Source: Sandarakinorhabdus sp. AAP62
GTDB taxonomy: Bacteria > Pseudomonadota > Alphaproteobacteria > Sphingomonadales > Sphingomonadaceae
NCBI RefSeq assembly: GCF_000331225.1
Contig: NZ_ANFY01000003.1
Coordinates: forward strand, 543,001-607,000
Length of the DNA stretch: 64,000 nucleotides
Direction: 5' to 3'
A model generated the notes under the pieces. It was given only the letters and a program-made list of their open reading frames with translations, was not told the DNA's origin and did not search any database. Of this stretch, positions 9,534 to 17,622 are shown piece after piece. The translations under genes were made by a program, and so were the position numbers. Position 1 is the stretch's first letter, and the number at the start of each line of letters is the position of its first letter.

Positions 9534-9595
9534 CGCCTTCTCGCCCAAATTGCCGGAATCCTGATTTTCGGCAGTGGCAGCGCTGATCTCATTGA

Positions 9596-9712
9596 GCCCA
9601 GGAAGGCAATGTTCTGGTCAGCCAGGGGCCGGAGCCGGTGAGCTGGGCAATGCTGATTGCCGGTTCTGGCCTGGTTGGTACGGTCAGCCGCCGCCGCGCG
9701 GTCCTGGCCTGA
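9596..9712 (+). pseudogene. Decayed 3' end of a PEP-CTERM protein gene
   Basis: Reading from 9629, the plus strand encodes PEPVSWAMLIAGSGLVG, then SRRR and a stop at 9710-9712. That is a complete PEP-CTERM sorting signal: PEP-x-x-W-A, hydrophobic helix, arginine cluster. The frame is closed upstream by TGA at 9593 and has no start codon, so only the tail of the gene survives. It closely resembles the tail of the phytase-like protein at 16-17.6 kb (PEPASWAMLIAGFGLVG). Confidence 0.8.
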
Positions 9713-9863
9713 TCGCCTGTTGCGCGACGCCACAACCCTGTTTCCATCTCCACGCCGCCGGCCGCCACCATGTGGCCGGCGATGCCATTGCGGTGTCGGA
9801 AAATTTTACACAAGGCGTGCGCTGGCCCGCAATGACGGCAAAAAATGCGTCTCTGGCCAGATG

Positions 9864-9871
9864 TTAACCAT
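9864..9871 (+). promoter_or_regulatory. TTAACCAT octamer, possible CtrA half-site
   Basis: TTAACCAT is a CtrA half-site motif described in Caulobacter and relatives. Here it lies in GTTAACCATTTTCT, 281 nt upstream of the PEP-CTERM start. The same GTTAACCATTTT core recurs upstream of the second PEP-CTERM gene at 16129. An 8-mer is weak evidence by itself. Confidence 0.3.
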
Positions 9872-10026
9872 TTTCTAATGGTCGCGTCAGAAGACTTAAG
9901 ATATGTTTACTTGTGGTGATGGTTGACGCCGAGTCGCGTCATCAGACTGTCATCTCTAGCGCCGTCAGGCTCTGCCCTGTTGGACCCGGATGCTGCTGTG
10001 CGGCATCTGGCGTGTCGGCGTTCTTT

Positions 10027-10043
10027 ACATCCATTTTGGATGT
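10027..10043. promoter_or_regulatory. Inverted repeat, candidate enhancer site for a sigma-54 activator
   Basis: ACATCCA-TTT-TGGATGT: perfect 7-bp arms and a 3-base spacer. Its centre is about 97 nt upstream of the start point predicted from the sigma-54 promoter at 10106-10120, within the usual range for upstream activating sequences bound by sigma-54 response regulators. In known PEP-CTERM systems the activator is PrsR, paired with kinase PrsK; neither gene is in this window. Confidence 0.5.
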
Positions 10044-10105
10044 TGGATTCGATCCGCTCCCATCAACTGCCTGATAAATCAGCATGAATAGCGAAAAACC
10101 CATCT

Positions 10106-10120
10106 TGGCACGCTGCTTGC
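10106..10120 (+). promoter_or_regulatory. Consensus sigma-54 (RpoN) promoter
   Basis: TGGCACG-CTGC-TTGC matches the -24/-12 consensus TGGCACG-N4-TTGC at every fixed position, with the required 10 bases between GG and GC. The start point would be near 10132, giving a leader of about 20 nt that contains the GAGGGAGA ribosome site of the PEP-CTERM gene at 10152. Confidence 0.85.
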
Positions 10121-10151
10121 AGGGGAGGCGGCAAACCAGAGGGAGATTTCA

Positions 10152-10841
10152 ATGCGTATTCTTGCTGCTCTTGCCGCGGCCGCTGTTTTGGCCATGCCGG
10201 CATCTGCCGTGACCATCTTCAGCCAGAATTTCGATTCGGCACCGAAGGCAAACAACACCACCAACGTGCCGGGCTTCACTGTTTCGGGCGCAGTTGACCT
10301 GATCCCCAACGGGACTGCCGGTGTGCTGTGCGCTGGTGCCGCTGGTCGTTGCCTCGATCTCGTCGGTTCGCCGAACGTCGGTTCGGTCACGTCCAATCCG
10401 ATCAACTTCCAGGCTGGTCGCCTGATCACGGTGACCTTTGATCTGAGCGGCAACCCGCGCGCCAACACGCCGCCCGATATCTTCAACTTCGCCCTGGGCT
10501 TCACCAATCCGGAAAATATCGCTGCGTTCACGCTGATCTCCGGCTTCCAGGGCAGCTATGGCACCATCGGTTCGAACATCACCAGCATGGGCACCTACAC
10601 GGAATCGCTGGTGCGCAACCGTCCGTTCGTGACCTATGCCCTGTCGTTCGTGTCGACGGGCGCTGGTTCGCTGCTGCTGACCTTCGGCGCTGGTGGCCCG
10701 AACGATTCGGCTGGCCCGATCCTCGACAATATCCTGGTCGACAGCGCGGTGCCGGAACCGGCCACCTGGTTCATGCTGCTCACCGGCTTCGGCATGGTCG
10801 GCCTTGCGGCTCGCCGTCGCCGCGGCAGTGTGGCTGCCTGA
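10152..10841 (+). CDS. PEP-CTERM sorting domain protein
   Basis: A 229-residue exported protein. Signal peptide residues 1-19 (cleavage after PASA), then a beta-rich, Thr/Gly/Asn-rich body of about 175 residues starting VTIFSQNFDSAPKANN, reminiscent of jelly-roll surface domains. It ends with PEPATW (201-206), a hydrophobic helix and RRRR: the exosortase recognition signal. Exosortase cleaves such proteins at the membrane and sends them to the surface or matrix; no exosortase gene lies in this window. GGGAGA precedes the ATG. It is monocistronic between a sigma-54 promoter and a strong terminator. Role in the matrix or in aggregation is inference. Confidence 0.88.
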   Translation: MRILAALAAAAVLAMPASAVTIFSQNFDSAPKANNTTNVPGFTVSGAVDLIPNGTAGVLCAGAAGRCLDLVGSPNVGSVTSNPINFQAGRLITVTFDLSGNPRANTPPDIFNFALGFTNPENIAAFTLISGFQGSYGTIGSNITSMGTYTESLVRNRPFVTYALSFVSTGAGSLLLTFGAGGPNDSAGPILDNILVDSAVPEPATWFMLLTGFGMVGLAARRRRGSVAA

Positions 10842-10883: not shown

Positions 10884-10917
10884 GGGCGCCGCTCCCCCGG
10901 GGAGCGGCGCCCTTTTT
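10884..10917 (+). terminator. Rho-independent terminator of the PEP-CTERM gene
   Basis: A GC-rich stem GGGCGCCGCTCC / GGAGCGGCGCCC followed at once by TTTTTG, 43 nt after the stop codon. A second hairpin (GCGGCCGGAG / TCCGGCCGC, about 10850-10870) precedes it. This is the clearest intrinsic terminator in the window. Confidence 0.85.
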
Positions 10918-16164: not shown

Positions 16165-17622
16165 ATGCGCCATCTGCTTCTTGCCGCTGCCCTGCTGGCC
16201 GCGGTGCCCGCTTCTGCGGCCGTCACCTTCGCCGGCAAGATCGAAGTGGCTGGCGATGCCACCGACTTGTCGAAGCTGGGTGTCGGCCCCAACCTCAATC
16301 GCCTCAGCTTTGGTTCGGACATGGTCTATGATCCCAGCCGGCGCGTGTTTTATGGCATCAGCGATCGCGGCCCCGGCGGCGGCACCATCGATTGGGCGCC
16401 GCGCATCGAAACCTTCAAGGTGGATACGGCGGCCAATGGCGCCATCAGCAATTTCCGCGTGGTCGATACCACGGAGTTCCGCCAGGCCAATGGCCAGGTG
16501 TTCAGCGGCCTCAACCCCAGCCGGCTGCCCGGCGGCGCCGGCGTGCTTGGCGCGGCGCTGGATTCCGAAGGCATTGTGCGCCTGCCCAATGGCAATTTCC
16601 TGGTGGCCGATGAATATGGCCCGTCGGTTTATGAAACCAACAACAGGGGCGTTTTCATCCGTGCCTTCACCCAGCCGGCCAATGTGGTGCCGCTGGCCAA
16701 TGGCAGCCCCGATTTCGCCAATGGCCGGCCCACCATCACCTCGGGCCGGCAGGACAATCGCGGCTATGAAGGCCTGACCATTTCCGGCGACGGCAAGACG
16801 GCCTGGGCCATATTGCAGGATCCGCTGGTCAACGAAGGTTCCAACAACGATGGCCGCCGCAGCCAGAATCTGCGCATCGTGCAGTTCGACGTTGCCACCG
16901 GCCAATCGACCGGCCAGTTCGCCTATCAGCTGGAAAGCATCGCCGATATCAATGCCCGCACCACGACGGATTTCACCGCGACCAATCAGGGCCGCAGCAT
17001 CGGCGTGTCGTCGATCACCTGGATCGGTGGCACCAGCTTCCTGGTGATCGAGCGGGACAATCGCGGCGAAGGGCCGGACAATCTGCTGAGCTCCAATGGC
17101 GACGTGGGCAGCAAGCGCGTCTATCTCATCGATCTGGCGGGCGCGACCGACGTTTCGGCCATCAGCTTTGCCGGCAGCAACAGCCTGCCCGGCGGTGTGA
17201 CGCCAGTGAGCAAATTGCTGTTCCTTGATGTGCAGGCCGCGCTGACGGCGGCTGGCGAAGTGTTGCCGGAAAAGTTGGAGGGCCTTGCCATCGGCCCGCG
17301 GCTGGCGGGTGGCGGCTTTGCGCTGCTGCTGGCCACCGACAATGATTTTTCGGTGACGCAGAACGGCAGCAACGAACAGTTTGATGTCTGCTTCGGCGGC
17401 GGTCTGGCCGCCACGCAGGTGGCGCTGGGCGCGGCCTGCCCCAATGGCCAGGCGCTGGTGCCGTCGCGGCTCTACAGCTTTGCCGTCACCGGGGCTGATG
17501 TTGCCCTGTTTGATGCCTCGTTGATCGGCGTGCCGGAACCGGCGAGCTGGGCCATGCTGATTGCCGGTTTTGGCCTTGTCGGTGCGGCTGCCCGCCGTCG
17601 CCGCGCCACGGTTGCGGCCTGA
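16165..17622 (+). CDS. Phytase-like esterase with PEP-CTERM sorting signal
   Basis: 485 residues. Signal peptide (MRHLLLAAALLAAVPASA), then a body matching the 'esterase-like activity of phytase' beta-propeller family: DMVYDPSRRVFYGISDRGPG, the LPNGNFLVADEYGPSVYE block, and FLVIERDNRGEGPDNL. Family members are thought to hydrolyse phosphate or other esters, though few are tested. The C terminus is an exosortase signal: PEPASW at 457-462, hydrophobic helix, RRRR. Hence an exported, probably surface-sorted hydrolase. GGGGGGAA precedes the ATG. A hairpin follows the stop. Confidence 0.88.
   Translation: MRHLLLAAALLAAVPASAAVTFAGKIEVAGDATDLSKLGVGPNLNRLSFGSDMVYDPSRRVFYGISDRGPGGGTIDWAPRIETFKVDTAANGAISNFRVVDTTEFRQANGQVFSGLNPSRLPGGAGVLGAALDSEGIVRLPNGNFLVADEYGPSVYETNNRGVFIRAFTQPANVVPLANGSPDFANGRPTITSGRQDNRGYEGLTISGDGKTAWAILQDPLVNEGSNNDGRRSQNLRIVQFDVATGQSTGQFAYQLESIADINARTTTDFTATNQGRSIGVSSITWIGGTSFLVIERDNRGEGPDNLLSSNGDVGSKRVYLIDLAGATDVSAISFAGSNSLPGGVTPVSKLLFLDVQAALTAAGEVLPEKLEGLAIGPRLAGGGFALLLATDNDFSVTQNGSNEQFDVCFGGGLAATQVALGAACPNGQALVPSRLYSFAVTGADVALFDASLIGVPEPASWAMLIAGFGLVGAAARRRRATVAA

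Follow-up and report, generated by a model that had tools for sequence, protein, structure and literature searches.

The question raised by this locus is what switches on a single PEP-CTERM protein gene of Sandarakinorhabdus sp. AAP62, and which of the elements upstream of that gene is the operator. The gene lies in the window, i.e., the whole stretch of 64,000 nucleotides that was analysed, and the main features of the locus are on the forward strand, except one IHF-like site. A sequence-only reading had proposed that a full-consensus sigma-54 promoter and an upstream perfect 7-3-7 palindrome drive one PEP-CTERM gene with its own terminator, switched on by RpoN and the PrsK/PrsR two-component pair. 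The parts named were found in place: the gene for a PEP-CTERM (PEPxxWA) protein of 229 aa at 10152-10841, the sigma-54 (-24/-12) site TGGCACGCTGCTTGC at 10106-10120 with 11/11 specified bases, the inverted repeat ACATCCA-TTT-TGGATGT at 10027-10043, and an intrinsic terminator at 10884-10912, in which a T run follows a G+C-rich stem of 13 bp. The PEPxxWA-CTERM tail of the protein scored 46.5 bits (NF035944, cut-off 35), and the C-terminus, consisting of the PEP motif, a hydrophobic stretch and a basic end, was above the PF07589 cut-off (31.1 bits). The regulatory part of the proposal is probably right, being well supported in sequence by the regulators, the exosortase and four further PEP-CTERM genes with paired sites; the choice of the palindrome as operator appears to be wrong.

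The genome encodes RpoN (TIGR02395, 381.1 bits, cut-off 277.35), PrsR (TIGR02915, 672.8 bits, cut-off 502.6) and PrsK (TIGR02916, 528.8 bits, cut-off 300). The sequence-only reading had called for a search for prsK/prsR and an exosortase gene; prsK and prsR are neighbours on C11, 9 nt apart, and there is one exosortase match in the genome (C5:203682-204452, PF09721, 199.5 bits). IHF beta is also encoded; a 70-residue fragment scored 100 bits, under the cut-off of 119.95 that applies to the full-length protein.

A 17-nt box, TGTCGGNNNNNYTTACA, emerged when the window gene was set beside L002, another PEP-CTERM gene of this genome. It has six exact copies in the genome: a proximal one (TGTCGGCGTTCTTTACA, 10013-10029, 76 nt before the sigma-54 site) and a distal one (TGTCGGAAAATTTTACA, 9794-9810) upstream of the window gene, and those at C3:335112, C5:107966, C5:161854 and C17:56528. 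The proximal box overlaps the palindrome, the first three bases of which (10027-10029) lie inside it, and on sequence comparison this box is most likely the operator. Box and promoter resemble a published motif pair: Haft 2006 (PMC1569441) describes, in the parts that bear on this locus, a 17-nt motif 1 ending in TTTACA and followed, after 62.8 +/- 10.6 nt, by a sigma-54 motif, the pair lying upstream of 99/167 proteobacterial PEP-CTERM genes and being tied to PrsK/PrsR. The likeness to motif 1, compared on these features alone, is in length, TTTACA 3' end and spacing, the 76 nt to TGGCACG falling within the range of 32-92 nt given there; in the same account motif 1 can be repeated, as are the two boxes here, and the sigma-54 motif 2, the long non-coding upstream region, the single-gene unit and the encoded PrsK/PrsR agree as well.

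Counted by itself, the box does not exceed its control, with 15 copies at up to one mismatch in the genome versus 16 for the reversed pattern, and therefore the weight is on its pairing with a sigma-54 site. The sigma-54 string alone is also weak evidence: it has 12 exact copies in the 3.13-Mb genome, several of them inside coding frames; at up to one mismatch there are 152 copies versus 87 for the reversed pattern, and in the window 4 observed versus 3.28 expected. Three exact strings deserve mention as separate observations, one 117 nt ahead of an IHF-beta-like gene (G000:C4:137560-137574, L005) and two lying 1.5 kb apart (G000:C17:178127 and 179654; L010, L011), beside genes that read as flagellar by eye (FlhA-like, FlgB-like). 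The box and sigma-54 pair is found at five PEP-CTERM genes of the genome, namely the window gene, three genes with exact boxes and one gene with a one-mismatch box at C2:7127. There are 36 PEPxxWA matches above the cut-off, including a tail remnant at 9629-9697, and among the 30 genes with loci examined, 25 are without the pair. A second PEPxxWA-CTERM tail of the window (17530-17601, 56.5 bits) belongs to a 498-codon open frame, and neither box nor sigma-54 site was found upstream of it within the locus examined.

Across genomes, the strict pattern (box, 50 to 80 nt, sigma-54 site) gave 77 matches in 37/296 genomes of the order, and a looser one 74 matches in 22/24 congeneric genomes; the reversed pattern gave none in either set. 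PrsR (E <= 1e-120) was present in 34/37 box genomes versus 230/296 overall (Fisher p 0.03), which is a modest association; among the 230 genomes with PrsR, 196 are without the strict pattern. The three box genomes without such a PrsR are G084 and G116, which are incomplete or fragmented and whose lack of PrsR is deduced from absence among the matches listed, and G281, which is 100% complete. About 135 sites were found, and after 15 order sites were left out and duplicates merged, 118 distinct sites with loci entered the analysis: 81 stand before a PEP-CTERM gene, 19 before the gene of a short, unannotated microprotein of membrane type behind truA and 18 before neither, as classified by home-made profiles, of which the PEP profile was derived from these same sites. 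Among the 18, some have what looks by eye like a PEP tail, or extend beyond the locus. In plasmid regions of Nitratidesulfovibrio and Alteromonas that carry PrsR, there was one weak box match (3 mismatches) versus 3 for the reversed control, and the stretches compared have no annotated PEP-CTERM gene.

Four orthologs (L099-L102), whose proteins are 68-82% identical to that of the window gene, including that of Sandarakinorhabdus limnophila DSM 17366 (L101), allow the upstream region to be compared base by base. The proximal box is exact in 4/4 with a varying 5-nt centre, and the distal box is exact in three and has one mismatch in the fourth. In the window and the three close orthologs, the halves of both boxes are identical at 24/24 positions, and the centres at 2/5 each. 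The sigma-54 site is exact in L102 and has one mismatch in L099-L101, at -41 to -46.

Adjoining the proximal box, the core of the palindrome, ATCC-N5-GGAT (10029-10041), is conserved only in close orthologs. Here 10034-10041 is identical at 8/8 positions compared with 184/412 over the whole region, whereas the right end of the repeat is conserved at 0/2; this segment is thus constrained in close relatives, but not as a perfect palindrome. A possible but rather unlikely explanation is that, in this ortholog group, a second regulator works jointly with PrsR and uses the core as an accessory site. Its retention beside the box in 4/4 close sequences would fit such a site; however, the core is lost in L102, and the independent comparisons are few because L100 and L101 are near identical in this upstream region.

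A comparable doubt concerns the distal box, which could be the leftover of a lost promoter and no enhancer of the window gene. Just upstream of it, between argG and the window gene, lies the remnant at 9629-9697, a PEP-CTERM tail without a protein body (NF035944, 39.4 bits, cut-off 35) in a 38-codon open frame, a 34-residue piece of which matched no family; there is no sigma-54 site near this box. Similar degraded PEP-CTERM traces are seen by eye in the intergenic regions of the orthologs. We nevertheless consider the leftover explanation unlikely: the 6-bp halves of the distal box are kept at 12/12 positions in the window and the three close orthologs while its flanks have diverged (5/20 and 10/30), and the position of the box, downstream of the remnant, means that it did not serve the remnant gene as promoter. 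The distance between the two boxes is 219, 221, 222, 222 and 180 bp in the window and the orthologs, near whole helical turns, two of these five values being really independent. The block 9863-9905 between the boxes is conserved at 32/43 positions in the window and three orthologs, and begins with GTTAACCATTTTCTAA, which we take to resemble a CtrA site.

As a repeat, the palindrome is unremarkable by chance. A perfect 7-bp inverted repeat with a loop of 3-8 was found in 242/1000 dinucleotide shuffles of 9534-10151, one with a loop of exactly 3 in 54/1000 (8/1000 when restricted to 10000-10105); perfect 7-3-7 repeats number 19 in the window. No second copy exists genome-wide, even at one mismatch. 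From 150 nt upstream of the box through the promoter, the palindrome at up to two mismatches occurs at 4 of the 118 box sites, i.e., the window gene plus the three orthologs nearest to it. The sequence-only reading had asked whether other PEP-CTERM or polysaccharide genes share the repeat, and had named in advance its absence at other RpoN-linked PEP-CTERM genes as a refutation; the repeat is confined to this one ortholog group, and by that standard the palindrome part of the proposal falls. That the palindrome itself is the operator of the activator, PrsR or a gene-specific regulator, is therefore improbable: it is a perfect repeat at a plausible distance with a constrained core, but its ends are unconserved, it is absent from L102, it has a single copy in the genome and it accompanies few box sites, while such repeats are common by chance.

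The 17-nt box remains the favoured operator, and its placement is regular. The 118 box-to-sigma-54 spacers fall into classes of 51-54 bp (n=30), 61-66 bp (n=67) and 72-76 bp (n=21), with none between, although the edges of the classes rest on the 50-80 search range. The classes are about one helical turn apart. The mean resultant length is 0.85 near 11 bp, compared to a maximum of 0.42 in 2000 uniform draws; when each of 42 protein clusters, formed under an earlier rule by which 83 sites were flagged, contributes a single site, it is 0.83, a value reached in 0/5000 draws. Spacers of 81-111 yielded one site in 24 genomes, of about 99 nt and off the helical series. These spacers in relatives suggest that the box must be placed on a single helical face of the DNA.

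Column frequencies of the 63 class reveal C-A and T-T, at positions -26/-25 and -19/-18 relative to the promoter, corresponding to the IHF consensus WATCAANNNNTTR. At up to one mismatch, this consensus is matched in 49/118 spacers, versus 2/118 for stretches of the same length taken upstream of the box and 6.5% for shuffles, and the IHF-like sites are mostly at -29 in forward orientation (63 class) and at -31 in reverse (53 class). The window gene has an IHF-like site at 10064-10076 on the reverse strand (CAACTGCCTGATA, one mismatch to YAANNNNTTGATW). Offset -42 is the best IHF match in 3/4 orthologs, with 1-2 mismatches, and the stretch is weakly conserved (5/13 identical). An IHF site between enhancer and promoter is the arrangement of the IHF-assisted RpoN promoters described in the relevant part of PMC7962754, to which the IHF-like site of the window gene may correspond.

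Taken as a whole, we assign a probability of roughly 0.85 to the window gene being a member of the PrsK/PrsR-RpoN regulon for exosortase-sorted PEP-CTERM proteins, including the following mechanism. From the boxes, promoter, terminator, regulators, exosortase, conservation and spacing read in the DNA, we infer how PrsR binding and activation, the action of IHF, sorting and a ligand may fit together. Phosphorylated PrsR, an NtrC-type activator, would bind the 17-nt box at 10013-10029, helped by the second box at 9794-9810; IHF or intrinsic bending would loop the DNA, so that PrsR could remodel the RNA polymerase-sigma-54 complex bound at 10106-10120. Transcription would start near 10132 and end at 10884-10912. 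After export, the product would be cleaved by the one exosortase of the genome and become part of the exopolysaccharide matrix, in which a domain resembling carbohydrate-binding modules may hold polysaccharide.

The AlphaFold2 model of the window protein is a beta-sandwich (mean pLDDT 68.0, pTM 0.70), with a jelly-roll body resembling carbohydrate-binding modules. The best PDB matches of the model are CBM4-2 carbohydrate-binding modules (E 1.5e-5, target TM 0.64); a gingipain adhesin domain is equally good by E-value, and eukaryotic MAM and Eph domains come next, so that a carbohydrate-binding role is only suggested by the model. The protein did not reach the cut-offs of the choice-of-anchor C/DUF642 families (TIGR04362, 44.3 bits, cut-off 120; PF04862, 18.5 bits, cut-off 27).

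The betaproteobacterium Aquincola tertiaricarbonis offers a parallel. Its pepA, as described in part of PMC9850573, is RpoN1-dependent with a mapped start, and resembles the window gene in being a single PEP-CTERM gene with a -24/-12 promoter, a terminator and a predicted upstream enhancer; the window protein differs from PepA, scoring 19.8 bits with the PepA model, for which the cut-off is 80. The PrsR-type regulator DVUA0057 of Desulfovibrio vulgaris bound its five predicted PEP-CTERM targets in vitro; a regulator of this type at PEP-CTERM genes is thus shared, and the portion of that study bearing on the point did not validate the binding motif (PMC3333781). PrsR operators have been predicted since 2006, and that binding study, in the same portion, gives no validated motif for its PrsR-type regulator. 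The parts and logic of the window promoter are already known. Section 7 of Haft 2006 (PMC1569441) reports the mean and SD of the spacer without mention of helical classes, an IHF site or a microprotein target, and in the open-licence PMC literature we found no report of helical spacer classes or IHF placement at PrsR promoters, or of the microprotein. We give even odds to the combined proposal that PrsR promoters are looping devices of strict geometry, with the 17-nt box on one helical face, an IHF bend whose place and orientation are specific to each class, at this gene a second box about 21 turns further upstream, and, as a target, an undescribed one-helix membrane microprotein that is always truA-linked. 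A strict box with a helical-phase rule and an IHF position would make the geometry of activation directly testable, and would also give a more specific pattern for scanning genomes for matrix genes.

With this microprotein, the PrsR regulon gains a specific new candidate member linked to truA. All 19 microprotein sites are behind truA; for example, in the genome studied here, tandem PrsR-type boxes and a sigma-54 site lie at the truA 3' end (G000:C17:56278-56544; L051, L105), ahead of a 42-aa membrane-type ORF. The 15 aligned microproteins are 35-66 residues long and share a single hydrophobic stretch as well as G-L-G-G positions that are invariant. In two close pairs, the codon changes were 4 synonymous and 3 non-synonymous, and 9 and 8, respectively; on our own expectation, synonymous changes appear to be more numerous than they would be without constraint. 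The Pfam and NCBIfam searches returned no convincing family, the best match being that of the CU044_5270 family (0.00076, 5/15 members). The microprotein profile had matches in 8/296 genomes, six of which had supplied profile sequences, the match in G130 being weak and partial. If the proposal is true, the microprotein may link the expression of matrix proteins to the envelope. It should be noted that at two other sites (L121 and L209) the box and sigma-54 pair precedes genes without a PEP tail, the N-termini of which are alike (RRRxLK...APAV); these are perhaps a further target family.
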